Below are positions 22,587-59,302 of a stretch of DNA of 64,000 bases, in pieces. Origin of the DNA: Amycolatopsis lurida (GTDB taxonomy: Bacteria; Actinomycetota; Actinomycetes; Mycobacteriales; Pseudonocardiaceae). Every line of letters starts with the position of its first letter. Within the stretch, counting starts at the first letter, position 1. The stretch is taken from positions 5,115,501-5,179,500 of the forward strand of contig NZ_FNTA01000004.1 in NCBI RefSeq assembly GCF_900105055.1, written 5' to 3'. The notes beneath the pieces were generated by a model. That model was not told the DNA's origin and searched no databases. It saw only the letters and a list, made by a program, of their open reading frames with translations. The position numbers were made by a program, and so were the translations under genes.

Positions 22587-22656
22587 GTTCCCGAAGAGAG
22601 GCTATGTAAGAGGAAGCCGTCTGGCTGCCGCCGATCGGGCAATCAGTTCAGCGATG

Positions 22657-22729
22657 TGCCCCCGGCAGGATTCGAACCTGCGACACCCGCTTTAGGAGAG
22701 CGGTGCTCTATCCCCTGAGCTACGAGGGC
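22657..22729 (-). tRNA. tRNA-Arg, anticodon CCT
   Basis: Read on the minus strand: acceptor GCCCTCG pairs with CGGGGGC (one G-T wobble), the D-arm contains AGCTCAGGGGATAGAGC, the anticodon stem CCGCT/AGCGG holds loop CTCCTAA with anticodon CCT, and the T-arm is GCAGG-TTCGAAT-CCTGC. 73 bases without encoded CCA; discriminator A. It reads AGG codons. No integrated element is attached to it in this window. Confidence 0.95.
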
Positions 22730-42728: not shown

Positions 42729-42755
42729 TTGGCACTCAGCCGACAAGAGTGCTAA
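42729..42755 (-). promoter_or_regulatory. CIRCE element (HrcA operator)
   Basis: TTGGCACTC (42729-42737), nine bases, GAGTGCTAA (42747-42755). The consensus is TTAGCACTC-N9-GAGTGCTAA, so only one base differs. It sits between the promoter and start of the ruc-like gene, as expected for heat-stress repression by HrcA. Confidence 0.85.
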
Positions 42756-42829
42756 CGCCTAACGGTACCGGGGCATTCCGCCGCAGGTCAAACAAGGTTT
42801 CCCAAGGTCACATGAGGACCTGGTCACGC
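42740..42829. repeat. attL candidate: 90-bp direct repeat, left copy
   Basis: Matches 54871-54960 at 84 of 90 positions. The longest identical stretch is 24 bp (42782-42805). It overlaps the ruc promoter and the right arm of the CIRCE element. Mismatches cluster on both sides of the 24-bp core, as expected when att halves come from chromosome and element. Confidence 0.8.
42762..42791 (-). promoter_or_regulatory. Putative promoter of the ruc-like gene
   Basis: On the minus strand TTGACC (42786-42791) and TACCGT (42762-42767) with 18-bp spacing. The transcript would begin at or in the CIRCE element. The same two boxes occur in the right-hand att repeat. Confidence 0.55.
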
Positions 42830-42831
42830 CC

Positions 42832-42853
42832 TCTGTTCCGTACCTGTTCCGTG
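42832..42853. repeat. 22-bp direct repeat, left copy (possible integrase arm site)
   Basis: Contains CTGTTCCGTACCTGTTCCGT and is identical over 22 bp to 54699-54720. It is two tandem copies of a 10-bp unit with GTTCCG. It lies just inside the left att repeat; the right copy lies between integrase and the right att repeat. Position suits arm-type binding sites. Confidence 0.6.
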
Positions 42854-43629
42854 CCGGACCGAGATCGGCTCTGGTCCAGGGTACGAGCCGTCATGAGCTG
42901 GGCGGTCTCCGAGCGTGCTGCCTGACGGCCTCGCCTTCCTGCTCCGTGCTCACTCTGGCGGCCTCTCCGGCTGCCCCGTGTGCCTGTTTGCTCCGCTTCC
43001 CTCGCCCCCGCCATCTCTAGCGCCGGGTCGGTCGTGTCAAGGCACGCTTTCCCGCCTTGATGCGGGCGGGCCGGTGTTAGACGCTGAGAAGCGAGGGACC
43101 ACCTGGTGACCACTGCGCGTCGGCTGGGTGGGTCGGGTGATCTGGTCGTGTGGCTCCTGGGTCTCCGTCGTCGTTGGCGGCGCGCTGCGGGTGCTGCCCT
43201 GCGGCGGGCTCGCCCGGCGGCGCCTGCCGGAGCGGAGCGGGAGGCCGGCGTCGCCTCCTGGGCGTAGCCCGCCGGACGGGCGGTGACCCGCGCGCCGCCA
43301 ACGGCGGCGCCTTGATCCCATAGAGCCAAATTCGGCAAGGCTACGAGAGCGTTCTACAGTGTCCCGAATGTCCGGAGAAAGACGCGAATCTGTCACGCGG
43401 CCATTACGGTGTGGTCACAGTTCTTAGTAAGGTGTTGCAGTCCGAACGGGACGACACTGCCGCCTGTGTCGCTCTACCTGCACATCAAGTGCTTGTGGGC
43501 AAGGTGACCTGGGTGTCGACGGTGCTGCATCCGACAGTCATCATGCAGTTTAAAGGTGGTTTACGGCAAGTTTTGTACCTATCCTAGCTTGTGACTGCAT
43601 GCTAAGGGCTACTGACAGGGGTGTAAGAG
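42854..43629. other. Non-coding left end of the AICE with hairpins
   Basis: No convincing gene: the open frames here are Arg/Pro/Ser-rich and lack start signals. The segment has GC-rich inverted repeats, for example GCGCCGCC (43292-43299) with GGCGGCGC (43303-43310) around three bases. From about 43320 base composition drops sharply towards the AT-rich cargo gene start. It could hold transfer or replication sites; that is unproven. Confidence 0.5.
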
Positions 43630-45054
43630 ATGTTGCTCCGCTTTCGGGTGGCCAACCATCGATCGATCAGGGACGAGCAAGAGCTCTCGCTCGTGGCAGT
43701 GCCGCGTCAAGGCGCTGAGGGGTCGGCAGACAAGGTTGTTCCTCCTGCCGTGCGAGTAGCGGCAATATATGGGCCAAACGCTTCGGGTAAGTCGAGTGTA
43801 ATAAGCGCGATGTACTATATGATCGTTGCGCTTAGGGACTCTTATCGATCATGGGATCCGTCTAACGAGATTCCGCGCCAACCTTTTTTGCTCAATATTC
43901 ACTCGCGCAAACAGCCGAGCCTATTTGAAGTTGACTTTCTTATTGATGATGTTAGATATAACTATGGCTTCGAGCTTGACTCGCATAAAATTCTGTCCGA
44001 GTGGCTCTTCTCGTACCCGTACGGCAAGAAGCGTGCGCTCTTTGAGCGGTCTGAGGGAAACCATTTTCGATTTGGTCGCAGTTTAAGGGGTGAGAATTCT
44101 ACAACCGCCCGCCTGACAAGGCCAAACGCACTTTTCCTATCTGTGGCAGCCACGACGGCGCATGAGGTTCTGACTCCGGTATTTGATTACCTTACAAGGT
44201 CAATAGTGTATGCGGACAGTACGCATAATCAGGAGACTTCGAGGCTGCATTGGCTTAGGGATAAGCTCGCTGACCCAGAATTTGCTCGTGATGTCGGCGA
44301 CATGCTGCGGCTTGCAGATCTTGGCCTAGTCGGAATCGAACTAGTTCCGGATGCAAATTTTGCAGATCTGCCTCACCCTGAAGATGGTGAATCTGATGAG
44401 CCCTTCTCGACTATCGAACTTGATTTCGGTGACTTCGCTCAGACTCCTAAGGGGGCAGTCGAGGCGCTGAAGAAATTTGTAAGCGTATCGGGTGGCAGGA
44501 TACGAACGAGTCGAATGAAAATTGAGCTACTTCATTCGGCCGAAGATCCAGAGTCTAGATTTTCTGTGCCACTTTCGCAGGAAAGTGCGGGGACTAGGTC
44601 GTGGCTTTCGCTTGCTGGGCGCATTCTATTCGCGCTGCGATACGGAGAGGCTTTGATTGTTGATGAGATTGACGCAAGTCTTCATCCTAGATTGAGTGCC
44701 ACGCTGATTCACATCTTTAAAGATGAAGAGTTCAACAGGTATGGCGCTCAGTTAATATTCACTACTCATGATGTAACCTTCTTGGGTGGCCTTGTTGACG
44801 ATAACCTCCTCTCTCGTGACGAGGTATGGTTTACTGAAAAGGATCACTACGGTGCAACCTCGCTCTATTCGCTAGTCGAATTTAAGCCACGGAAGGCTGA
44901 AAATATAGAGCGAGGTTATATGCAGGGTCGATATGGCGCCTTACCAATTATTGATGTGCATCAGATCAAAAAGGTTCTATCACGCATAGCATGGCCCGAC
45001 CGCGATGACTATATGAAGGCTGGTCACCGCGGAGGTGCGCGTGTCGAGTCGTAG
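43630..45054 (+). CDS. AAA15-family (RloA-like) ATPase, predicted defence protein
   Basis: 474 residues. MLLRFRVANHRSIRDEQELSL is the typical start of AAA15/OLD-like ATPases; Walker A GPNASGKSS at about residues 48-56; SAGTRSWLSLAGR resembles the ABC signature region, Walker B ALIVDEIDASLHP and the switch TTHD. COG1106-like proteins of this type work with a TOPRIM partner in antiphage systems such as PARIS. The gene is AT-rich and uses many codons rare in the host, so it was recently acquired. It overlaps the RloB-like gene by 14 bp. Confidence 0.88.
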   Translation: MLLRFRVANHRSIRDEQELSLVAVPRQGAEGSADKVVPPAVRVAAIYGPNASGKSSVISAMYYMIVALRDSYRSWDPSNEIPRQPFLLNIHSRKQPSLFEVDFLIDDVRYNYGFELDSHKILSEWLFSYPYGKKRALFERSEGNHFRFGRSLRGENSTTARLTRPNALFLSVAATTAHEVLTPVFDYLTRSIVYADSTHNQETSRLHWLRDKLADPEFARDVGDMLRLADLGLVGIELVPDANFADLPHPEDGESDEPFSTIELDFGDFAQTPKGAVEALKKFVSVSGGRIRTSRMKIELLHSAEDPESRFSVPLSQESAGTRSWLSLAGRILFALRYGEALIVDEIDASLHPRLSATLIHIFKDEEFNRYGAQLIFTTHDVTFLGGLVDDNLLSRDEVWFTEKDHYGATSLYSLVEFKPRKAENIERGYMQGRYGALPIIDVHQIKKVLSRIAWPDRDDYMKAGHRGGARVES

Positions 45055-45685
45055 AAGTCCGGGAAAGCGTGGCGATGACCTCTCAAGAAGAAGCGGATTT
45101 CGTAATCGCAAACCTCGCATACTTATTGTGTGCGAAGGCAAGAAGACTGAGCATCAGTACTTTAGCAGGATTGCGGCCTTCTTTCGTGCAAGCTCCGTGA
45201 ATGTTGCAACTTGTGATATTGAGGGGATGGGAAAGGATCCTGTTAGTGTAGTGAAGCGCGCTATTGAAAAGCGTGACAAAGCTGCTAAGAATGTGGATGA
45301 GAAGTATAGTCAGGTCTGGTGCGTAGTCGATGTCGACGAGCACAAAAACCTTGAAGATGCTTTGCTGTTAGCAAAGCAAAATCGTATCGGCGTCGTGGTT
45401 TCAAACCCCTGTTTTGAAATTTGGGCACTTTGGCACTATGAAGATCATAATGCGCATATCACGACGAAGGCGGTGCAGCGGAAACTAAAGCGTTGGATAC
45501 CAGAATACGATAAGGATCTTCCGGGGAACTTCCCGTATGCTAATTGTGATGAAGCGAAGAAGCGTGCGGTAGCTCGGCAGAAAAATACCGAAGGCTCGAT
45601 TAGTCAAAACCCTGGTTCGGCCGCATGGCTTGTCGTGGACGCTGTGAAAAGAGCAAAGTCCTTCAACTTCAAGCAGCGTCGGTAG
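45041..45685 (+). CDS. RloB-like TOPRIM-fold protein, partner of the AAA15 ATPase
   Basis: 214 residues from the GTG at 45041 (GGAGG five bases upstream; the GTG at 45035 is too close). After a basic start, ILIVCEGKKTEHQYF carries the TOPRIM-like glutamate and WCVVDVDEHK the DxD motif; NPCFEIWALWHYE is the RloB hallmark. Such proteins are candidate nucleases unleashed by the ATPase partner upon infection. Low GC like its neighbour. Overlap and shared composition indicate a two-gene unit moved together. Confidence 0.85.
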   Translation: MSSRRSPGKRGDDLSRRSGFRNRKPRILIVCEGKKTEHQYFSRIAAFFRASSVNVATCDIEGMGKDPVSVVKRAIEKRDKAAKNVDEKYSQVWCVVDVDEHKNLEDALLLAKQNRIGVVVSNPCFEIWALWHYEDHNAHITTKAVQRKLKRWIPEYDKDLPGNFPYANCDEAKKRAVARQKNTEGSISQNPGSAAWLVVDAVKRAKSFNFKQRR

Positions 45686-45777
45686 CTCGCTGACTACTTG
45701 TAGTTCGTTACTAGATGCGTCCGGAATACCGATGGGCTTACTTGAGAGGGTCTTGCTGCGGTCGATACCGTAAACGA

Positions 45778-46338
45778 GTGGAGCTAACAACATGGGCCGG
45801 TGAGTTAGCGGCTAGACGTCTCAGTCAGAGGTTGCCGCGCCGGTGGGCGCATGTCCAGGGGGTTTGTCGGCGGGTGCGAGCGGCAGGTCGATTGTTCGCC
45901 CCGACAGACGCGGACTTGCTCGCTGCGGCTGGGCTGGTACATGACATTGGATACGCGCCGGAGCTGGTGGATACAGGGCTGCACTCGCTAGACGGTGCGC
46001 GATACTTGAGGTCGGTTGAAGCTCCGCAGCGGCTGTGTGCGTTAGTGGCACACCACTCAGCGGCCTATCTCGAAGCAGGCTTACGCGGGTTGGGCGATGA
46101 GCTGGCTGATTGGGCTGACGAGCGGACGGCGCTAAGAGACGCACTTTGGTGGGCTGACATGACCACTTCGCCAGATGGAGACGTGGTCAGCTTCGAGGAG
46201 CGTGTGATCGAGATCCGGCAGCGCTATGGACCGGATGAGGTCGTGTCGAGGTGTGTCCAACTGGCGCGACAGGAGTTAGAAGGTGCGATCAATCGGACGG
46301 AAGATCGGTTGTGGGAGGCAGGTGTCGACTATGTGTAG
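45778..46338 (+). CDS. HD-domain protein
   Basis: 186 residues from the GTG at 45778 (an earlier start at 45715 encodes an unlikely Cys/Arg-rich extension). The motif GLVHDIGYAP contains the HD pair, with upstream His in RRWAHVQGV and downstream AHHSAAYLEAG supplying other metal ligands. A phosphohydrolase is predicted. HD proteins of this kind recur in AICEs next to Nudix genes. Its 3' end overlaps the Nudix gene by 10 bp tail to tail. Confidence 0.75.
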   Translation: MELTTWAGELAARRLSQRLPRRWAHVQGVCRRVRAAGRLFAPTDADLLAAAGLVHDIGYAPELVDTGLHSLDGARYLRSVEAPQRLCALVAHHSAAYLEAGLRGLGDELADWADERTALRDALWWADMTTSPDGDVVSFEERVIEIRQRYGPDEVVSRCVQLARQELEGAINRTEDRLWEAGVDYV

Positions 46339-46802
46339 AACGGCTGGTCAAGACCCTCGAAGCCGCGGGCGATCCTGAGCTGGATGGCGGGGTGAATGTT
46401 GAGGTCGTCCAGCTCAGCTGGTTCGACCCACAGAACCTCTTTGCTCTCGCTGCTCGTGCGCAGCTCGCCGGAGACCGGCCGAGCGCGGAAGCAGAGCGAG
46501 AACTCCTGACGGACCTCGCCGTCGTCGTACTCGATGACGTAGCCGGGGTCGGAGAAGATCCCGATGAAGCCGGTGACCTCGACGACCAGGCCGGTCTCTT
46601 CCTGGACTTCACGGACCACTGCCTGGGTCACCGACTCGCCGAACTCCTGCCCGCCACCGGGGATGGCGTACCGGTCGTTGTCGGTGCGCCGGATCATCAG
46701 CAGCCGGCGGCCAGCCTTGTCCAGGACAAACGCGCTGACGGCGACCCTTAGTGAGTTCGCCTTTGGCGCGTTCGGTTCGTGGTAGTGGTCTCGGCGTGCC
46801 AT
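46329..46802 (-). CDS. Nudix hydrolase
   Basis: 157 residues. A full Nudix box GGGQEFGESVTQAVVREVQEETGLV (G-x5-E-x7-REVxEETG) is at about residues 49-71. In pSAM2 a Nudix-motif protein (Pif) blocks redundant transfer into cells that already hold the element; this gene's position in the AICE makes a similar role plausible but unproven. It is close to, and on the same strand as, the DNA-binding regulator upstream. Confidence 0.85.
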   Translation of the reverse strand: MARRDHYHEPNAPKANSLRVAVSAFVLDKAGRRLLMIRRTDNDRYAIPGGGQEFGESVTQAVVREVQEETGLVVEVTGFIGIFSDPGYVIEYDDGEVRQEFSLCFRARPVSGELRTSSESKEVLWVEPAELDDLNIHPAIQLRIARGFEGLDQPFYT

Positions 46803-46812
46803 AGCTCCTTGC

Positions 46813-47697
46813 TTACCAGGTCAGCGGCTTGGCGGCACTCCAGACGGTCTCGAAGCTCTCCATGTAGGTCTCGAACATGTCGCCCTTTGGCGTGTGTCGG
46901 ATGTGCAGCGCGGGGGCATGCGCACCCGGGAGTCCGTACACGTGTGTGTTGATGACCATTTCATGGTCGAACCGGAACACCGAGTTGTAGAGCGTGGCTG
47001 TGTGCAGCCGTGCTTCTATGCCGGGTACGCCATCGAGCGGACGCAGGAACGCTAGGGCATTGCGGATGCGAGCGGAGACGGTGCGCGCGTCAAGCTGTTC
47101 TTCTTTGCTGCGCTTGGTGGCCTCGTCTGCTTCAGGATCGCCAAACAGGAGTCGGATCTTGGCTCCTTCGCTGGCTTTTTGCCTGATCTGCTTCGCAAAA
47201 GTGGGTCGCTCGACGAGAAACAGGGCGGCCAGGCACAGAATGTCGATGCGTTCACAGCAGTTGTCTAGTAACCGGGTCCATAGGTTGGCCGGGATTGCAC
47301 TGCGGTGGGGGAAAACCTCGAAGACTTCCGGGTTGCCGTTCGGCTCCATTGCGGAGCTCGGCGGGGTCGCGGTTTCGGTTGTTGGAGACGTGTGCGGTTC
47401 GGGTACGAACTCGATTCCACCATCATGTAACTCAAAGAGCTGTTCGGCCTGCCAGCCGGGAAGCATTGCTTCAAGGATTCGGCAGTGGTCGGCGTAGGGC
47501 AGGCCGACGAGTTCTCCGGATAGCCATCGGTAGAACTGGGCTTTGCTGGGAAAGCTGCCCCTGAGGCTCTTGTCGATCTTCTCGGCCACCTTGTCGTACT
47601 CGCGGCAGAACGCGCGGTAGCTCTGCAAGTGTCGTCCTCTGAGCAGGACTTTGAGGACGATCGGCCGGGCTTCCTGAGCTGCGGTGTCGGGGCTCAT
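46813..47697 (-). CDS. AICE DNA-binding regulator with C-terminal DUF5919-like domain
   Basis: 294 residues. The N-terminal about 85 residues are helical with SKAQFYRWLSGELVGLPYADHCRILEAMLPGW, an XRE-like arrangement common to actinobacterial AICE regulators. A Pro/Thr linker follows, and the C-terminal domain (IDILCLAALFLVERPTFAKQI, KIRLLFGDPEADEA) is of the PLD-like DUF5919 type. It probably controls the element, reading leftwards from a promoter that carries GAGAC repeats shared with the rightward gene at 47859. Confidence 0.75.
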   Translation of the reverse strand: MSPDTAAQEARPIVLKVLLRGRHLQSYRAFCREYDKVAEKIDKSLRGSFPSKAQFYRWLSGELVGLPYADHCRILEAMLPGWQAEQLFELHDGGIEFVPEPHTSPTTETATPPSSAMEPNGNPEVFEVFPHRSAIPANLWTRLLDNCCERIDILCLAALFLVERPTFAKQIRQKASEGAKIRLLFGDPEADEATKRSKEEQLDARTVSARIRNALAFLRPLDGVPGIEARLHTATLYNSVFRFDHEMVINTHVYGLPGAHAPALHIRHTPKGDMFETYMESFETVWSAAKPLTW

Positions 47698-49607: not shown

Positions 49608-49787
49608 ATGACGAAGATAAATGACGGCACACAGTGCGAGTCAACGGGGGTCACCCGAACGCGCTGTCCGGAATGCAAACGGTTCGCTCGGCTGCTGCCG
49701 GGTGAGGAGAAGTGCTCCCCGTGCATGGGGATGCTGCCGCTGCCGATCGTGGTTCCCGCCGCTGGTAAGCGGGGTGGTCGGCGATGA
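49608..49787 (+). CDS. Small zinc-ribbon protein of the AICE
   Basis: 59 residues from the ATG at 49608, with GGAG before it. Two cysteine pairs: RCPECKRFARLL and KCSPCMGMLPLP, a likely zinc knuckle. Basic C-terminus. The stop overlaps the TraSA start (ATGA), so it is the first gene of the transfer/replication operon. Role unknown; not seen in standard families. Confidence 0.65.
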   Translation: MTKINDGTQCESTGVTRTRCPECKRFARLLPGEEKCSPCMGMLPLPIVVPAAGKRGGRR

Positions 49788-51367
49788 ACGCACAAGAGAT
49801 CATGGCCACCCTTGTCGTGGGTGGCGGCCTGGCGGTGGTGCTGTGGGTGCTGGCCAAGGTCGGTCGTGTCCTGGCGAGTGTGTTCGAGGCGCTGGCCGCG
49901 TTGGCGGTGCTCGGCGTGGCGCTGTGGGGCCTGCTGCGGGCGGTCGGCTGGGCTGTTCGGCAACTCGTCACGCGCTGGCGAACCTGCCTGGCACTGCTGG
50001 GATTGTGGGCCTGGTGCACGGTGTTGGGCTGGGTGTCTCTCGTCGTCACGGTCGGCGTGCTGGCGGTCGTGCTGCTGGCGTGGTGGCGGCTCGACGCGGT
50101 CGGCTATGACCAGTGGTGCGGGCGGTGGCTGCGGGCGTGGTGGCTGCGTTGGGCGCTCTACGGTCGAAAGCTCGCCGGTTGGCTGCACGCCTGCGGGCTG
50201 ACGGTCCGGGACGACGCGATTCCCGTTGATGTGACGGTGAACCTGGTGTCCCGACGTCGTCGGCGTGAGGCGGTCGCGAAGGCTCGTCAGGCGTCCGGGG
50301 TGGCGGTGCCGAAACTGCTGTCGGTCCGCTCGGGTCCGTCGTGGGATGAGGTCCGCGTGCGGCTGGTTCCGGGTCAGAAACCGGAAGACTTCGACGAGGT
50401 CGCGCGGGAGCTGGCGGTGGCGCGCAAGGTGTCCCGCTGTCAGGTGCGGGAGCTTGAGCCGGATGTGGTGTCCATCGACTTCATGCGGCGGGATCTGCTC
50501 GACGCGGCGGTGACGTGCCTGCCGGTTCCGGAGATGGTGTCCGTGGACGGTTCGGGGGTGGATCTGCGGGCGGTCTATGCGGGTTCGACCGAGTACGGCA
50601 CGCCGTGGACGCTGCCGCTGGTCGGTGGTGGGGCGCACACGCTTGTGGCTGGTGCGTCGGGGTCGGGGAAGGGCTCGGTCCTGTGGGCTCCGCTGGTGTC
50701 GGCTGCGGCACCGATCCGCGCCGGTCTCATCCGGGTGTCCGGGATCGACCCGAAGGCGGTCGAACTTGCCTATGGGCGCGGGATCTTCGCCCGCTACGGG
50801 GTGTCCGGCAAGGAAGCGCTGGAAGTCCTGGACGCGCTGATGGAGGAGCTGGAGAACCGGAAGCGCGTCTTCGCCGGGAACACTCGTCAGGTCCCGGTCT
50901 CGACGGAGTATCCGGTGGAGCTGCTGGAGTTCGACGAGATCGGCGCTCTGACCCGCTACACCGACCGCAAGACCCGTGACGCGATCGTGGAACGGGTGGC
51001 GATCCTGACCACGCAGGGGCGGGCGCTCGGGTTCGCGGTCCGGGGCTATGTCCAGGAGCCGACCAAGGAAACCGTTCCGGTGCGGGAGCTGTTCACTCGC
51101 CGTATCTGCCTGCGGGTGACCGCGAAGAGTCAGGTCCCGATGGTCCTCGGGGACGGCGCGTACGAGCGTGGGGCGTGGGCGAACCGGATTCCGGAGTCGG
51201 CGGCCGGTGTCGGCTACGTCTGGGGCGAGGGCATCCGCGAACCCCTGCGTGTGCGGGCCGGGTGGGTTCCGGACCAGACCATCAAGCACCTGGAGCACTA
51301 CGTCACCAACGGCGGCGCCTCGGTGATCCACCTGTCAGACCGGCGCGGCGAGAGGGGGACGGCATGA
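49784..51367 (+). CDS. traSA: FtsK/SpoIIIE-type conjugal transfer translocase (TraSA/TraB-like)
   Basis: 527 residues. Membrane segments in the first about 110 residues (VVGGGLAVVLWVLAKV, LALLGLWAWCTVLGWVSLVV, VGVLAVVLLAWW), then a cytosolic motor with Walker A GASGSGKGS (290-298) and Walker B-like VELLEFDEIGAL. It pumps double-stranded DNA between mycelial cells in AICE transfer. It lies between the zinc peptide and the Rep gene, with start-stop overlaps on both sides. Confidence 0.88.
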   Translation: MNAQEIMATLVVGGGLAVVLWVLAKVGRVLASVFEALAALAVLGVALWGLLRAVGWAVRQLVTRWRTCLALLGLWAWCTVLGWVSLVVTVGVLAVVLLAWWRLDAVGYDQWCGRWLRAWWLRWALYGRKLAGWLHACGLTVRDDAIPVDVTVNLVSRRRRREAVAKARQASGVAVPKLLSVRSGPSWDEVRVRLVPGQKPEDFDEVARELAVARKVSRCQVRELEPDVVSIDFMRRDLLDAAVTCLPVPEMVSVDGSGVDLRAVYAGSTEYGTPWTLPLVGGGAHTLVAGASGSGKGSVLWAPLVSAAAPIRAGLIRVSGIDPKAVELAYGRGIFARYGVSGKEALEVLDALMEELENRKRVFAGNTRQVPVSTEYPVELLEFDEIGALTRYTDRKTRDAIVERVAILTTQGRALGFAVRGYVQEPTKETVPVRELFTRRICLRVTAKSQVPMVLGDGAYERGAWANRIPESAAGVGYVWGEGIREPLRVRAGWVPDQTIKHLEHYVTNGGASVIHLSDRRGERGTA

Positions 51368-53034
51368 CCAGCACAACCACAAATCCCCAGGTCGAAGCAG
51401 GTGCGGTTGCCCGGCCGGCACCCCCGAATGGAGTAGGGATCAAGGTAAGCCGCGGGGCGCTCTCTGCGGAGGTCGTGAAGGCCACTGCGGAGAAGCACGG
51501 CGTGTGTGTTCGGCCGTTCACGATGGAGGTCGGGGACACCGAAACCGGCGAGATCCGCTACGTGCCCGTGCCCTGTGGTTCGACGGTCGAATCGGTGTGC
51601 CTTCCCTGTGCTCGCAAGGCAAAGGCGCTCCGGCAGGCGCAGTGCCGTGAGGGCTGGCACTTGACCGAGGAACCCGTCATCGAACGGGAAAACCCGTCGG
51701 AGACGCAAACGGAGTTGCTGGAGTTCCGGGCTGATCTGGCGGCGCACTACCGGGACGCTGTGGCGGCCGGTGATGAGGTCGAAGTGGAGGAGCTGCGCGC
51801 GGAGGTCGCGTCGGTGGATGAGGAGTTGCGGGCGTCCGGGATGACGGGTCGCCTGCCTGCTCTCGACGTCCCGGAGAAGCGTCCGGTGAAGCGGTCCACG
51901 AAGCGGCGGCAGGACGCACCGAACCTGCCACGCCGCAAGGTCGCCAAGACCACCGTGGGCCGTGAGTACGCGGGGAAGTTCCGGCCGTCGATGTTCGTCA
52001 CGCTCACCTGTGACACCTACGGCCCCGTGCGGTCCGATGGTTCGCCGGTGAACCCGTCGACGTATGACTACCGGCGGGCGGCTCGGGACGCGGTGCACTT
52101 CTCGGCGCTGGTGGACCGGTGGTGGCAGAACCTGCGGCGCGTGGTCGGCTGGGATGTGCAGTACTTCGCCACCGTGGAGCCCCAGCGGCGGGCGGCTCCG
52201 CACCTGCACACCGCGCTCCGTGGCTCCATCTCTCATGAGGTCATCAGGATGGTCACGGAGGCCACCTATCACCAGGTGTGGTGGCCCAACCATGACGAGA
52301 TCGTCTACACCGACCGGGAACCGTTGTGGGACATGGATTCCCGCTCCTTTGTGGACCCGGATACGCGGGAACCTCTGCCGTCGTTCGACGAAGCTCGGGA
52401 GGCGGTGGAGGAACCCGCGCACGTCGTCACGTTCGGCCGTCAGGTGCACTCCAAGGGCATCCTGGGCGGCACGGAAGAATCCGGCCGTCACATCGGCTAT
52501 CTCACCAAGTACCTGACCAAGTCCACGGGTGAGGTGGTCGAGGCCGATTCTGCGGCGCAGCGGGATCACCACGACCGGTTGCACGCGGAGCTGTCGGTGA
52601 CCCCGTGTTCGCCTCGGTGCGCGGTGTGGCTGCTGTACGGCATCAACCCCCAGGGAGCCAACGGAAAGACCGTCCCTGGACGCTGCAAGGGCCGTGCTCA
52701 CCGCCGAACGACGCTCGGACTGCCGGGGCGGCGAGTGCTGGTGTCCCGCAAGTGGTCGGGCAAGACCGTGGCCGATCACAAGGCGGACCGGAAGGGCTTC
52801 GTCCTGGACGCGCTGGCCGCTGTCGGGATCACCAAGGAACAACCCGAACCTGACCGGTTCGTCTGGCGCAAGGTCGAACCTGGCGACACCCATTGCCCGC
52901 CACGGGATCACCTCGTGATGCGCGCCATCTCCGAACGGATCACCTGGAGAGCGGAGTACGACCGAGCGCTACTCGCTGCACAAGGGCCACCTAGCGACCG
53001 TCCGGAAACTTCGGCAACTCCGCTAGCGGCCTGA
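51364..53034 (+). CDS. repSA: RepSA-type rolling-circle replication initiator
   Basis: 556 residues from the ATG at 51364 (overlap with traSA). Motif 1: MFVTLTCDTYG; HUH motif PHLHTALRG with His280 and His282; catalytic tyrosines in GYLTKYLTKS (Tyr379 and Tyr383). An N-terminal cysteine cluster (VPCGSTVESVCLPCARKAKAL, then QC) may bind zinc. Homologous to pSAM2 RepSA, which nicks the double-strand origin to start replication of the excised element. Confidence 0.9.
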   Translation: MTSTTTNPQVEAGAVARPAPPNGVGIKVSRGALSAEVVKATAEKHGVCVRPFTMEVGDTETGEIRYVPVPCGSTVESVCLPCARKAKALRQAQCREGWHLTEEPVIERENPSETQTELLEFRADLAAHYRDAVAAGDEVEVEELRAEVASVDEELRASGMTGRLPALDVPEKRPVKRSTKRRQDAPNLPRRKVAKTTVGREYAGKFRPSMFVTLTCDTYGPVRSDGSPVNPSTYDYRRAARDAVHFSALVDRWWQNLRRVVGWDVQYFATVEPQRRAAPHLHTALRGSISHEVIRMVTEATYHQVWWPNHDEIVYTDREPLWDMDSRSFVDPDTREPLPSFDEAREAVEEPAHVVTFGRQVHSKGILGGTEESGRHIGYLTKYLTKSTGEVVEADSAAQRDHHDRLHAELSVTPCSPRCAVWLLYGINPQGANGKTVPGRCKGRAHRRTTLGLPGRRVLVSRKWSGKTVADHKADRKGFVLDALAAVGITKEQPEPDRFVWRKVEPGDTHCPPRDHLVMRAISERITWRAEYDRALLAAQGPPSDRPETSATPLAA

Positions 53035-53047
53035 ATTGGGGGACAAC

Positions 53048-53251
53048 ATGAACAACCACGCGATTCAGCTAGAAACTCTTCTCAGCACACCGGAGCTGTG
53101 CAAGTTCCTGGGTATTAGTCGAGACACCTTGTACGAGTGGCGGGAGATCAACACGGCGCCTCCGGCTATCAAGCTGCCTAACGGTCACCTTCGCTTTTCG
53201 CTCACGGCGGTGCGAGAGTGGCTGAACGGCAGGCAGGAGCGTGCGGCATGA
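53048..53251 (+). CDS. xis: Excisionase Xis
   Basis: 67 residues from the ATG at 53048 (GGGGGA upstream). Winged HTH of the MerR-like excisionase type: TPELCKFLGISRDTLYEWREI and PNGHLRFSLTAVREWLNGR. It bends att DNA with integrase during excision. Its stop overlaps the integrase start (ATGA). Confidence 0.88.
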   Translation: MNNHAIQLETLLSTPELCKFLGISRDTLYEWREINTAPPAIKLPNGHLRFSLTAVREWLNGRQERAA

Positions 53252-54636
53252 AACCGACGCGCCAAGTCCGGCTGTGGGAGATCAAGACCATGCCGCCGGA
53301 CAAGAAGACCGGCAAGAAGCGTCGGCGGCCTTACGGTGTCCGCTGGATCACGGCGGGCAAAGAACACTCGGAATGGTTTGCCACCAAGGCATTGGCGAAG
53401 GCTGAACTGTCCAAGCTTCAGCAGGCTATGAATCGTGGCGAAGCCTTCGACATTGAGACCGGACTACCCGAATCGATCTACCGGGAGGAACGATCTCCGA
53501 CGTTGCTGCGGGTGGCGCGTGAGTACCTTGCGCAGGTCTGGCCGGACATGTCGCCTCGCTCACGTGATCGGCTCGTAGATGGCCTTGCTGTTGCTGTACA
53601 AGGGTTTCTGTCCGATGAACCGGGGATTGAACCGGCCTTGGTGCGGCGTGCGCTGACAACGTTTGTGCTGCCGCCTGAGGTTTCCCGGGTTGAGCCGTCG
53701 GACGAGATTCGAGACGTAGCGGCCTGGCTTGAGGGTCACTCGCGGAAGGTGGGTGACCTTGCGAGTGAAGACGGGATCTTGGAGCTTGGGCGGGCGCTTC
53801 GACGGAAGCTCGATGGTCGGCAGGCGGCTACGCGGACAGTCGACACCCGTAAGAGCGCGGTGCTTCCGGCTCTCGACTTCGCCGAGCGGCGTGGCTACCT
53901 CGGAGGGAATCCGCTGTCTGGGGTGAAGTTGGTTCACTTCGGTAGTGAGCGAGAGGTTGACCCTGGAGTGGTCGTGAACCCGGTCCAGGCTCGAGAGTTG
54001 CTGACTGCGGTCACCTACGTTCGCCCGCGCGGCGGGAACCGGTCGTGGCGGCCCTTCTTCGCCACGCTCTACTACGCCGCGCTTCGGCCTGGTGAGGCTC
54101 GCTTTCTTGCTGACGTGCATTGCAAGCTGCCCCAGTCGGGTTGGGGTGAGTTGGTCCTGCCGAGTTCCCTAGGGAGTTCCGCCGCGCGGTACAGCGACGA
54201 CGGCGAGACGTACCAGGTTCGATCGTTGAAGCACCGTCCGGAGGAACATCGGCGAACCGTCCCGATCCCTCCGGTACTTGTTCGGATCTTGTCCGAGTAC
54301 ATCGACAGGGAGGGCCTGGCGGCGGATGGTCGGCTGTTCCGAACCAGCGAGGGCGGTCCGATCAGCCAGTCTTCTTACAGCGACATTTGGAGGTTGGTCC
54401 GGCCGCTGGCGCTGCTGCCGGGAGAGGTCGCCTCGCCGCTGGCCGCTCGGCCGTACGACCTTCGCCATGCGGCGGTCTCGTCGTGGATCGCTGCGGGTGT
54501 CGCTCTGCCTGACGTCGCGGAGCGAGCTGGGCACACGGTCGACATGCTGACGAAGATCTACGCGAAGTTCGTCCACGGGACGCGAGACGCCGCGAATCGC
54601 CGGATCGAAGGCTTCCTGGACGATGGCGGCGAGTAG
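53248..54636 (+). CDS. int: Tyrosine-type site-specific integrase
   Basis: 462 residues from the ATG at 53248. Basic N-terminal arm-binding part (KPTRQVRLWEIK, KKTGKKRRRPYGVRW), core-binding domain, then the catalytic domain with Arg in YYAALRPGEARF, the HRRTVPIPP region, the RHAAVSSW box and Tyr438 in TKIYAKFVHG. It integrates and, with Xis, excises the AICE. The att site lies within 250 bp downstream, as usual for this family. Confidence 0.92.
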   Translation: MKPTRQVRLWEIKTMPPDKKTGKKRRRPYGVRWITAGKEHSEWFATKALAKAELSKLQQAMNRGEAFDIETGLPESIYREERSPTLLRVAREYLAQVWPDMSPRSRDRLVDGLAVAVQGFLSDEPGIEPALVRRALTTFVLPPEVSRVEPSDEIRDVAAWLEGHSRKVGDLASEDGILELGRALRRKLDGRQAATRTVDTRKSAVLPALDFAERRGYLGGNPLSGVKLVHFGSEREVDPGVVVNPVQARELLTAVTYVRPRGGNRSWRPFFATLYYAALRPGEARFLADVHCKLPQSGWGELVLPSSLGSSAARYSDDGETYQVRSLKHRPEEHRRTVPIPPVLVRILSEYIDREGLAADGRLFRTSEGGPISQSSYSDIWRLVRPLALLPGEVASPLAARPYDLRHAAVSSWIAAGVALPDVAERAGHTVDMLTKIYAKFVHGTRDAANRRIEGFLDDGGE

Positions 54637-54720: not shown

Positions 54721-54870
54721 GACGCCACCAAGCCGCCGGAGACAGTCACAGACGGTGCCAGACGCTGATACTTCGGCAACGGGGCGCTTCTGTTGCGAGA
54801 CAAGGAAATGTGCCCTGAACCTGCTGGGCGGGCGGTCGCAGAGTGTAACTGGATTTTCGTCGGGACTCTG

Positions 54871-54960
54871 CCGACAAGAGTGCTAACGCCCTACGGTACC
54901 GGGGCATTCCGACGCAGGTCAAACAAGGTTTCCCAACGTCACATGACGGCCTGGTCACGC
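54871..54960. repeat. attR candidate: 90-bp direct repeat, right copy
   Basis: 84 of 90 positions match 42740-42829; identical core at 54913-54936. It keeps the -35/-10 boxes of the ruc promoter (on the minus strand) and one arm of the CIRCE element, but the other arm is degraded (GGGACTC in place of GGCACTC, with further changes) and no gene follows. Between 54721 and 54870 nothing gene-like is seen. Confidence 0.8.
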
Positions 54961-55084
54961 GGTTCGTCCCGTACCTCTTCCCCGCCGGGCGCGGCCAGGG
55001 ATGTGATGTGGCCGACCGAGCGAGAGTTGATCTTCACTGGCGTGGGATGTGGTGTTGCGAGTCCGGCTGCGGTGAGATGACCGC

Positions 55085-56767: not shown

Positions 56768-57408
56768 CGATCGACGTGGCACTGGTCGACGACCAGGAAC
56801 TGGTCCGGACCGGCTTGGCCATGGTCGTCGACGCGACCGACGACATCCGGATCGTCGTCCAGGCCGCCGATGGCGTGGAGGCGGTCTCGAAGCTCGCCGA
56901 GACCAAGGTCGACGTCGTGCTGATGGACGTCCAGATGCCGCGGATGGACGGGGTCGAGGCCACCGGAGTGGTCGCCGCCCGCGAGAACGCGCCCAAGGTG
57001 ATCCTGCTGACGACGTTCGACCTCGACGAGTACGCCATCGCCGGTCTGCGCGCCGGCGCGAGCGGGTTCCTGCTCAAGGACGCTTCGGCCGGCGAGGTGC
57101 TGCACGCCATCCGCGCCGTCCATGCCGGCGATGCCGTGATCGCGCGCTCCACGACCCGGCGCATGCTGGATCAGCTCGCGGTCGCACGCGACACTTCTTC
57201 GTTGCTGAAGCGGCTCACCGCGCGCGAACGCGACGTGTTGCTCGAGATCGCGCAGGGATACTCCAACGCCGAGACCGCGCAGCGGCTCTTCCTCTCCGAA
57301 GCCACGGTCAAAACGCACGTCGGTCATCTGCTCGCCAAGCTCGAGGTCCGTGACCGGGTGCAGGCGGTGATCTTCGCGTACGAGAACGGACTCGTGCGTC
57401 CGAGCTGA
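56764..57408 (+). CDS. NarL/LuxR-type response regulator
   Basis: 214 residues. Phospho-acceptor Asp55 (VVLMDVQMPRMDG), Thr/Lys pair (LLTTFD, LLKDAS) and LuxR HTH (TARERDVLLEIAQGYSNAET, LFLSEATVKTHVGHLLAKL). Forms the output of the kinase it overlaps. Confidence 0.92.
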   Translation: MTIDVALVDDQELVRTGLAMVVDATDDIRIVVQAADGVEAVSKLAETKVDVVLMDVQMPRMDGVEATGVVAARENAPKVILLTTFDLDEYAIAGLRAGASGFLLKDASAGEVLHAIRAVHAGDAVIARSTTRRMLDQLAVARDTSSLLKRLTARERDVLLEIAQGYSNAETAQRLFLSEATVKTHVGHLLAKLEVRDRVQAVIFAYENGLVRPS

Positions 57409-57482
57409 GCCGATCTCATCATTTCGGTGGAGGTACCGGCGACCTCAGGGCGAGGATTCCCGCCGAACAGGCGAGCAGCCTG

Positions 57483-57941
57483 ATGCGCATGACGACAACA
57501 GACACAACCGCCGAAGCGACCATCACCCGCGCCCGGTGGCGCGACCCTGCCACCTGGGGCGGGATTCTCGCGCTGGGCGGCGGCCTCTTCCACACCGTCG
57601 TCGCCGGCTTCATGCGCCAGGACGTCTGGGCGCGGATCTTCGACGAAGGATTCTTCAACACGGTCACGCTGGACCCCACGCCCGACCGGCTGCCCATGGC
57701 CGAGGCGTTCTGGCTCAGCCCTGGCAGTTTCGGGGTGCCGCTGCTTCTGCTCGGCGGGCTGGTGCTCCGGCACACGCGGCGCGGCGAACGCGTGCCCGCC
57801 TGGCTGGGCTCGGGCGTCCTCGCGTGGGCGGTCCTGCTCGGACTGCTGGGCGGTTTCGACGCCGGAACGATCGCCCTGCTGCTCGTCGGCTCGCTTTTTC
57901 TGGCAGGAGCCCGGCGCGGTCGTGGAATCATGAACGAATGA
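57483..57941 (+). CDS. Hypothetical membrane protein
   Basis: 152 residues with four hydrophobic helices; contexts TWGGILALGGGLFHTVVAGF, GSFGVPLLLLGGLVLRHTRR, GVLAWAVLLGLLGGF and GTIALLLVGSLFLAG. Resembles small DUF6463-like membrane proteins. 4-bp overlap with the decarboxylase gene suggests co-translation, perhaps under the preceding two-component system. Confidence 0.68.
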   Translation: MRMTTTDTTAEATITRARWRDPATWGGILALGGGLFHTVVAGFMRQDVWARIFDEGFFNTVTLDPTPDRLPMAEAFWLSPGSFGVPLLLLGGLVLRHTRRGERVPAWLGSGVLAWAVLLGLLGGFDAGTIALLLVGSLFLAGARRGRGIMNE

Positions 57942-59302
57942 CCGAACTGGGGGATCTGCTGGCCGATGTCGCCGCCCGTGTCACCCGTTACCGCGAAAGC
58001 GTCGCCGACGTCCCGGTCTTTCCCGAAGACACGACGGGCGTCCGGGAGAAGCTCGGCGACCTGCCCGAGAAACCCGCCGCGCCCGCCGACGTGATCCGGC
58101 GGCTGGCCGACGCCGTCGAGCCGGCGCTGGTGGCGAACACCGGGCCGAGGTACTTCGGTTTCGTCACCGGTGGCGCGCTGGACGCCGCGACGGCGGCCGA
58201 CATGCTGGCGACCGGCTGGGACCAGCCCGCGTTCAACAAGATCACCTCACCGGCCGCCGCGATCGTCGAGGAGGTGGCGGGCGAATGGCTCAAGGACGTC
58301 CTCGGCCTGCCGTCCGGCGCCTCGTTCGGTTTCGTGACCGGCGGGCAGGGCGCGAACACGGTCGGCCTCGCCGCCGCCCGGCATCACGTCCTGGCGCGGG
58401 CCGGGTGGGACGTCGAGCGCCGCGGGTTGCACGGGGCGCCGCCGCTGCCGGTCGTCGCCAGTGAGGAGCGGCACGCGACGATCGACCGATCGCTCCGCTT
58501 GCTCGGCCTGGGCACGGACGCGGTCAGGCCGGTGCGCGCGGACGGCCAAGGCGCCATCGACATCGCCGATCTCGAACGGAAGCTCGACGGGCCCGCAATC
58601 GTTTGCCTCCAGGCCGGGAACGTGAACACGGGCGCGTTCGACGACGTCGCCGCGGCGACGGAGATCGCCCACCGTCATGGAGCTTGGGTGCACGTCGACG
58701 GCGCGTTCGGGCTCTGGGCGGCCGCCGCCCCCTCACTCCGACGGCTGACCACGGGGCTGGCGAAGGCCGACTCCTGGGCGGTCGACGGGCACAAGTGGCT
58801 CAACGTGCCCTACGACTGCGGGTACGCCTTCTGTGCCCATCCCGAGTCGCACCGGGCCGCGATGGCGCTCACCGCCGCGTACCTGACCGGCCAGGGGGAG
58901 GGTGGGGTGCGGGCGCCGAGCGACTTCGTGCCGGAATCCTCCCGCCGGGCGCGAGGGTTCGCGACGTGGGCGGCGCTCAGCGAACTCGGCCGCTCGGGGA
59001 TCGCCGAGCTGATCGACCGGTGCTGTGCGCTGGCCAGGAGGTTCGCCGAGAAACTCGATGCGTGCGAAGGCGTCACCGTCGTGAACGACGTGGTGCTGAA
59101 CCAGGTGCTCGTCAGCTTCGGCGACGACACGGACCGGGTCGTCGAGGCCCTTCAGCGTTCCGGCGAATGCTGGATGGGCGCGACCACCTGGCACGGCATG
59201 CGCCTGATGCGCGTCTCCGTGTCCAACTGGAGCACGACCGAAGCGGACGTCGACCGCAGTGTCGCCGCGATCGAGGCGATCAGGAATCGAGAAGCGTCGT
59301 GA
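57938..59302 (+). CDS. PLP-dependent decarboxylase/aminotransferase class V-like enzyme
   Basis: 454 residues from the ATG at 57938. Group II decarboxylase fold: FGFVTGGQGANTVGLAAARH, HVDGAFGLWAAA (PLP-binding Asp) and DSWAVDGHKWLNVPYDCG with the lysine that forms the Schiff base (Lys286). Resembles glutamate or aromatic-amino-acid decarboxylases; the substrate is not evident. Overlaps the membrane protein gene by 4 bp. Confidence 0.87.
   Translation: MTELGDLLADVAARVTRYRESVADVPVFPEDTTGVREKLGDLPEKPAAPADVIRRLADAVEPALVANTGPRYFGFVTGGALDAATAADMLATGWDQPAFNKITSPAAAIVEEVAGEWLKDVLGLPSGASFGFVTGGQGANTVGLAAARHHVLARAGWDVERRGLHGAPPLPVVASEERHATIDRSLRLLGLGTDAVRPVRADGQGAIDIADLERKLDGPAIVCLQAGNVNTGAFDDVAAATEIAHRHGAWVHVDGAFGLWAAAAPSLRRLTTGLAKADSWAVDGHKWLNVPYDCGYAFCAHPESHRAAMALTAAYLTGQGEGGVRAPSDFVPESSRRARGFATWAALSELGRSGIAELIDRCCALARRFAEKLDACEGVTVVNDVVLNQVLVSFGDDTDRVVEALQRSGECWMGATTWHGMRLMRVSVSNWSTTEADVDRSVAAIEAIRNREAS

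Follow-up and report, generated by a model that had tools for sequence, protein, structure and literature searches.

What do two overlapping genes of low guanine plus cytosine (GC) content do at the left end of an integrated mobile element in Amycolatopsis lurida, and how did they come to lie there? The question is raised by a stretch of 64,000 nucleotides (contig NZ_FNTA01000004.1, positions 5,115,501 to 5,179,500), referred to below as the window, whose own numbering is used for its features. The first gene encodes an ATPase and the second an RloB-family protein. The best explanation, with a probability of about 0.70, is that the two genes form an abortive-infection module of the AbiL type, which came to its present place as exchangeable cargo of an actinomycete integrative and conjugative element (AICE) and in which the ATPase controls a TOPRIM-type RloB nuclease. 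The exchangeable slot that holds the pair, marked by a conserved box, was not seen in the initial annotation of this DNA and is a more original result than the pair itself.

The ATPase and RloB pair

The genes in question are the following:

43630..45054, + strand: abiLi-type gene, encoding an OLD/ABC-type ATPase of 474 amino acids (Pfam, PADLOC, 69-row alignment, structure model)
45035..45685, + strand: abiLii/rloB gene, encoding an RloB-family protein of 216 amino acids, a TOPRIM-like nuclease candidate (Pfam, PADLOC, structure model)

As listed, the two open reading frames (ORFs) overlap by 20 nt; a likelier rloB start is the GTG at 45041, 5 nt past a GGAGG, which gives an overlap of 14 nt. 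The ATPase belongs to Pfam AAA_21 (9e-37), while AAA_15, at 31.9 bits, falls just below its 32.1-bit cut-off. The initial annotation, which had described an overlapping AAA15 ATPase and RloB-like pair, was therefore right about the pair and the ATPase but, going by the curated cut-off, not about the ATPase family. The protein also matches the PADLOC AbiLi model (5.2e-93), and conserved columns of the 69-row alignment include a Walker A motif GPNASGKS (48-55), S319xGT, D345-E346, and H380. Its structure model (predicted local distance difference test, pLDDT, 88.5) resembles Rad50/SMC heads and PtuA, and a profile search recovered PtuA (3e-9), AriA (7e-4), and the retron Eco8 OLD protein (0.0015). 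The second protein matches Pfam RloB (PF13707, 2.7e-40), as its RloB-like label had led one to expect, and the PADLOC AbiLii model (2.3e-26). Both models also match all 74 RloB sequences of set A3 (window included), an agreement that is partly by construction, as the set was gathered with the RloB profile.

According to these profile matches, the pair is an AbiL-type module, that is, a catalogued two-gene system and not an undescribed one, and its role as a defence module of this type is highly probable. AbiL is cited as a plasmid-borne abortive-infection system (PMC10440598), and an abortive-infection role, which had been proposed from the outset, is plausible in view of the AbiLi and AbiLii matches. 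The accompanying claim of little or no experimental description was too strong, as bench results on homologues of AbiL have been published (PMC10440598, PMC3985639). With the plasmid system of Lactococcus lactis the pair shares an operon of ATPase and RloB-family genes and a match to both PADLOC models, through which the likeness is drawn; the pair described here differs in being borne by an AICE.

The two genes are conserved together, as the initial annotation had presumed. In 86 of 92 RloB loci (window included, split gene fragments counted once), the gene immediately upstream encodes an AbiLi-type ATPase in the same orientation, with a median gap of -4 nt between the ATPase stop and the first RloB profile residue. 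The same pairing was found in 79 of the 80 best genome loci across phyla and in 17 of 18 viral contigs. PF13707 itself occurs in 10/296, 42/397, and 35/394 genomes of the phylum, order, and class samples, respectively, which overlap; every RloB place listed for these samples was included in the 92 loci. The pair was also met on viral contigs, plasmids, and one phage record, the P2-like Klebsiella phage ST13-OXA48phi12.1 (Peduoviridae), in which adjacent genes for an ATP-binding and an RloB protein are flanked by those for the replication endonuclease and the portal.

The composition of the pair is strongly foreign. The GC content is 0.501 for the ATPase gene, 0.487 for rloB, and 0.495 for both, against 0.680 for the whole window, 0.651 for the remaining element, and 0.694 beyond it, in agreement with an early estimate by eye of about half and far below the surroundings. 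GC at third codon positions is 0.49 in both genes and 0.72-0.85 in the integrase, RepSA, and FtsK genes of the element, and all six lowest-GC 2056-bp windows of the 64 kb (100-bp steps) overlap the pair. Such a composition would also suit decaying or neutral cargo with no present function. This is very improbable, because both reading frames are intact and overlapping, and the key ATPase residues and TOPRIM-like acids have been retained.

The TOPRIM question and the proposed mode of action

Whether RloB is a TOPRIM-type nuclease was approached through its conserved residues, a structure model, and profile comparisons. Across the 74 RloB sequences, E39, D99, S123-E128, and W130 are invariant, and the window protein carries the TOPRIM-like acids E34/E39 and D99/D101. 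In its AlphaFold2 model (pLDDT 88.5), strands and helices alternate, with E34 immediately past strand 1 and D99 immediately past strand 3. Aligned with a profile of nine OLD-TOPRIM sequences, RloB reached a P value of 0.0037 with EG..TE and DxD in register, and with a profile of four DUF4435 sequences, a P value of 0.0013 with EG and DxD in register; none of 100 column-shuffled versions of either profile reached the real score. An unrelated control profile (A4) gave a P value of 0.068 across 11 columns. HHpred has likewise been reported to relate RloB to OLD_TOPRIM, and RloB homologues to be paired with AAA antitoxins (PMC10440598). A TOPRIM-type centre in RloB is thus likely from sequence and model, though not proven.

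The same alignments bear on the target of the putative nuclease. OLD nucleases, Gabija GajA, and the retron Eco8 OLD protein have a related ATPase and a similar TOPRIM-like motif register, which would fit an enzyme cutting phage DNA directly instead of host RNA. In those proteins, however, ATPase and TOPRIM are fused in one chain, while the effector here is a separate protein, as in PARIS, and aligns slightly better with DUF4435, so that a DNA-targeting nuclease of the OLD or Gabija kind is considered unlikely. An RNA substrate, with tRNA as the candidate, is slightly favoured over DNA by analogy with the PARIS effector AriB, whose logic is the closest to have been characterised. Septu and retron PtuAB systems differ from the pair in their effector, which is an HNH nuclease.

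PARIS (AriA plus AriB) also consists of an OLD/ABC ATPase and a separate TOPRIM-type effector carried on mobile elements, and the families used to recognise its ATPase partner (AAA_15/AAA_21) include the one found here. Its effector belongs to DUF4435 and that of the pair to RloB, another Pfam family: the window RloB has no match to PF14491 (DUF4435) at E<=0.1, and the 74 A3 members match 14 families of which this is not one. The proposed parallel to the two-gene design of PARIS, with an RloB-like protein in place of DUF4435, therefore holds. As a side observation, RloB is commoner than DUF4435 in the host order (42/397 against 2/200 genomes), although the two samples differ and only one of the two DUF4435 genomes is above the cut-off.

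From the families, gene order, pairing, motifs, composition, vehicle, and slot observed here, we infer a mechanism in which the AbiLi ATPase would assemble as an oligomer controlling RloB (AbiLii) and, once it senses a cue from a phage or plasmid, would release or activate RloB. The latter would then cut nucleic acid through a metal-dependent TOPRIM-type centre formed by E34/E39, D99/D101, and perhaps E128, and this cleavage would arrest the cell ahead of phage spread. That RloB is a toxic nuclease restrained by its ATPase is reasonably probable. In Clostridium algidicarnis, an RloB-homologous toxin and an AAA antitoxin (TOPRIM_OLD D44 : AAA D29) are among the pairs tested for toxicity neutralisation, and the toxin, which is toxic in Escherichia coli, is neutralised by its partner (PMC10440598); this clostridial pair was validated by neutralisation, and the passages on it show no phage defence. 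AbiLii from Fusobacterium nucleatum also inhibits the growth of E. coli (PMC3985639). Among the literature matches listed for RloB and AbiL, these two papers supply bench data on AbiL homologues, and none concerns RloB biochemistry.

Several observations weigh against this explanation. With regard to the toxin, the F. nucleatum AbiLi failed to neutralise its own toxic AbiLii, and neither AbiLi nor AbiLii from L. lactis inhibited the growth of E. coli (PMC3985639), so that the toxin-antitoxin results for AbiL homologues are mixed; in PARIS, the loss of either gene is non-toxic (PMC9122126). With regard to pairing, 6 of the 92 RloB loci are without an ATPase gene, a count in which gene fragments and contig-end cuts are not separated out. 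With regard to the active centre, E34, the expected first TOPRIM acid, is not shared by the whole family (glutamate in 57 of 105 aligned RloB rows, with 18 of the 105 gapped), hhalign probabilities are low (9% for OLD-TOPRIM, 19% for DUF4435), and the RloB profile had no match among PDB sequences at E<=10. A Foldseek/VIA-align search with the RloB model yielded no match at E<=0.001, and those listed were generic Rossmann-like folds with no TOPRIM chain among them, although this missing chain is not evidence against a TOPRIM centre. The acidic residues on which the initial annotation had staked the nuclease assignment are thus present in sequence and model, while the fold search did not confirm a TOPRIM domain.

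According to the AbiL results and the PARIS deletions, toxin-antitoxin logic need not apply. The pair might instead act as a sensor in the manner of PARIS, with neither gene toxic alone and RloB triggered when a phage protein binds the ATPase. The shared two-gene architecture, the presence of AriA among the ATPase profile matches (7e-4), and DUF4435 as the best profile alignment of RloB agree with such a sensor, as do the non-toxic single deletions of PARIS and the non-toxic L. lactis proteins. The toxicity of the C. algidicarnis and F. nucleatum effectors, the neutralisation of the former by its AAA partner, and the absence of DUF4435 from the window protein and from the families of the A3 members argue against it, and it is entertained as a tentative alternative. 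The contrary results of PMC3985639 raised its standing slightly from an already doubtful level, lowered that of the restrained toxin from quite likely to the degree stated above, and reduced the probability of the AbiL-type, nuclease-controlling module from about 0.75 to the present value.

The element and its attachment site

The pair lies at the left end of a 12-kb integrated RepSA-type AICE, inside the attachment (att) repeats. The features of this element are the following:

42731..42857, + strand: left attachment repeat, located 5' of an fmdB-type gene; a CIRCE-like inverted repeat lies at 42729-42755
45778..46338, + strand: mdp-like HD-domain phosphohydrolase gene, the putative right edge of the cargo slot (Pfam HD, 1.8e-8); its start is set by homology and alignment with the sister element L212, the longest ORF running from 45715
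46329..46802, - strand: nud-like NUDIX hydrolase (Pfam NUDIX, 3.5e-20)
46813..47697, - strand: DUF5919 protein (Pfam DUF5919, 1.3e-5)
49784..51367, + strand: FtsK/SpoIIIE-type transfer gene (Pfam, 5.8e-10)
51364..53034, + strand: repSA-type replication initiator (Pfam RepSA, 2.9e-98)
53036..53251, + strand: excisionase-like HTH_17 protein (Pfam, 1.4e-12)
53218..54636, + strand: tyrosine integrase (Phage_integrase, 5.3e-6; 26.8 bits, just below the 27.1-bit cut-off)
54862..54988, + strand: right attachment repeat, 87% identical to the left, forming a 127-nt direct repeat

Judged from its RepSA initiator, FtsK-type transfer protein, integrase and excisionase, att repeats, and the uninterrupted sites of relatives, the element is an AICE, which bears out the early view of the pair as cargo at the left end of such an element. 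In the relative L203, the match up to about 42857 continues straight into the match from 54862, and in L204 it continues from 54862-54960 and then from 55515 onward; both represent uninterrupted sites. In nine more relatives, the fmdB side and the att copy are matched but nothing of the element is at the site, and the host sequence downstream picks up again only at window positions 57233-57955. In a twelfth, L212 (genome G344), the att site is occupied.

The att site (42729-42857, with its near-copy at 54860-54988) corresponds to the intergenic region upstream of the fmdB-type gene, which holds the CIRCE-like (HrcA operator-like) inverted repeat. Compared with the CIRCE consensus, this repeat has one mismatch in the left att copy and in all twelve relatives, and three in the right copy. 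Because the element carries a near-copy of the att site, the upstream region of fmdB would stay whole after integration. Integration into a tRNA gene was considered and rejected, as the sole tRNA found in the window lies at 22656-22729. An Rfam scan of the element gave no matches.

With pSAM2-class AICEs the element shares RepSA, FtsK-type transfer, xis/int, and the order of an mdp-nud-xre cluster that has already been described (PMC3218068), and it differs from them in its intergenic, CIRCE-containing integration site. From its position in this order, the DUF5919 protein is probably the xre partner of mdp and nud. Genes like the NUDIX gene have been tied to conjugal immunity, as in the case of Pif of pSAM2 (PMC3218068), and the carrier is of a conjugative type, so that the pair might serve the AICE itself by excluding or destabilising competing AICEs or plasmids or by addicting the host, rather than by acting against phages. 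This is improbable, given that the pair also occurs on viral contigs, the phage record, and plasmids, and that the genes scanned from the slots of related elements frequently have matches among anti-phage families, known or candidate.

The box and the cargo slot

Two further features delimit the position of the pair within the element:

43292..43338, + strand: slot box, made up of a GC hairpin and, 3' of it, CTTGATCCCATAGAGCCAAATTCGGCAA; marks the left border of the putative cargo slot (nhmmer)
43339..45777, no strand: cargo tract between the box and the HD gene, 50.1% GC

The consensus of the box is a hairpin followed by CTTGATCC(C/T)NTAGAG...TTCGGCA(A). The sister AICE L212 occupies the same site with 89% identity across 9.1 kb, but there the tract from 43339 to about 45777 is swapped for about 0.9 kb with an unrelated ORF of 292 amino acids. 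RepSA-type AICEs likely possess a slot dedicated to interchangeable defence cargo, whose left edge is the hairpin-plus-CTTGATCCC..TTCGGCA box and whose right edge, in mdp-nud-xre elements, is mdp. If so, any gene immediately 3' of the box becomes a candidate defence gene, and this would extend to the genes of the ten loci given below that have no match.

Of 61 loci besides the window (60 slot loci plus L212), 43 have the box 5' of the HD gene according to nhmmer, never on the opposite strand, and in the other 18 it was not detected at E<=1e-3; as the box model was iterated on the same loci, 43/61 is not an independent figure, and the genus pattern search given below comes closer to one. The 60 loci were hand-picked, not drawn at random, from the best HD-gene matches listed in a search of 297 genomes, with some matches skipped and two loci taken from genome G1081. 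Box and HD gene are 56-115 bp apart in 8 of the 43 boxed loci (empty slots) and separated by 0.77-4.9 kb in 35 (filled slots), and sequence identity between loci ends at the 3' end of the box. The slot is lower in GC than the next 1.5 kb in 35/35 filled and 4/8 empty slots (Wilcoxon p 4e-8 for the difference over all 43). In a cruder test, independent of the box, the 1.5 kb upstream of the HD start were at least 5 GC points lower than the 1.5 kb downstream in 39 of 59 loci.

Beyond these elements, a 27-nt box pattern occurs in 47 of 60 genomes of the genus, with no hit for the backward control, and the source genome of the window holds three copies. Of 82 boxes listed, 20 were fetched (the first 16, the two other copies of the window genome, and one each from G344 and G632). 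In all 20, GC drops in the 1.5 kb immediately 3' of the box relative to the sequence 4-6 kb downstream (medians 0.526 and 0.668), although the right edge of this low-GC tract is not defined there. A RepSA gene follows in 16/20, a NUDIX gene in 7/20, and a detected HD gene in 0/20, which indicates that the box is more widespread in RepSA AICEs than the mdp-type slot.

The genes held by the slots were compared with PADLOC. In total, 40 low-GC ORFs from 32 loci were scanned in two batches. The first comprised 20 ORFs of 12 loci, with matches accepted up to 1e-5; for the second, the longest ORF was taken in each of 20 loci out of 32 having one, with matches accepted up to 1e-10 (L304, nearly a copy of L305, was passed over). 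At these thresholds, 17/32 loci gave a match. Of the 23 loci whose scanned ORF is located inside the interval from box to HD gene, 13 match at E<=1e-10, a proportion that stands without a null, namely a background PADLOC rate for genes of similar size. The tenants are NsnABC (L246), Lamassu (L252), a methyltransferase with NsnA/GmrSD (L259), PD-Lambda-2_C (L262), a methyltransferase (L301), SoFic (L305), an argonaute-associated restriction endonuclease (L307), DRT UG23 (L313), LmuB (L315), PD-T4-4 (L320), an AriA/AbiLi-like ATPase (L323), a CBASS 4TM effector (L334), and HEC-03B (L339). Broad families (AAA, methyltransferase, Fic) account for some of these matches, PADLOC mixes candidate with tested systems, and the longest-ORF starts in L259 and L320 extend slightly past the box. 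Left out of the count were L250, L251, L322, and L329, whose ORF lies outside the box-mdp interval, and L261, L311, L314, L333, and L338, in which no box was detected; among them, L261 matches Lamassu, L311 PifA, L314 DRT UG22, and L251 PDC-S73.

The other ten slot loci (L212, L245, L248, L253, L257, L300, L310, L318, L321, and L332) have no PADLOC match. They include long low-GC ORFs, given in locus coordinates: L245:1839-5083, L248:2598-4811, L257:2025-4313, L318:3170-5815, L332:3165-5297, and L212:4774-5652. The encoded proteins measure 615 and 467 amino acids (L245), 738 (L248), 763 (L257), 882 (L318), and 711 (L332). A Pfam scan of those in L245, L248, L257, and L212 also gave no match. 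These long ORFs are candidate undescribed defence genes.

A link between the box and AbiL in particular was rejected, since none of 80 AbiL genome loci (flanks of up to 6 kb) holds the box at E<=1e-3. It was not found in L001-L092 either, but little upstream DNA is present there and L001 begins past the box. This makes AbiL one tenant among many. Low-GC ORFs also occur to the left of the box in L251 (2474-4729), L302, and L329, where the slot itself is empty, which hints at a further place for cargo on that side; the ORF in L251 carries nSTAND3 and Mrr domains and is the one that matches PDC-S73.

Beside the box, positions 43040-43339 form a very stable single-strand fold (-97 kcal/mol, z -3.8, with 0 of 200 shuffles as stable). 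The box itself is a possible rolling-circle origin or recombination site. The idea of an origin is based on the nick motif of the pC194 family and on the published placement of pSAM2 in this family. Slot cargo may be swapped by recombination or by Rep activity at the box. Among the matches listed, the AICE-defence literature holds no account of a box-marked slot, although one may exist elsewhere; one nuclease family is already known to be associated with genes of AICEs as well as with those of defence (PMC11706625).

The pair adds an AICE-borne member to the AbiL family, whose RloB component has no solved relative by PDB sequence search (E<=10). The slot matters more than the pair: it raises the testable question of how AICE cargo gets exchanged, and, if it is what it appears to be, its box would offer a simple route to new defence genes in high-GC bacteria.

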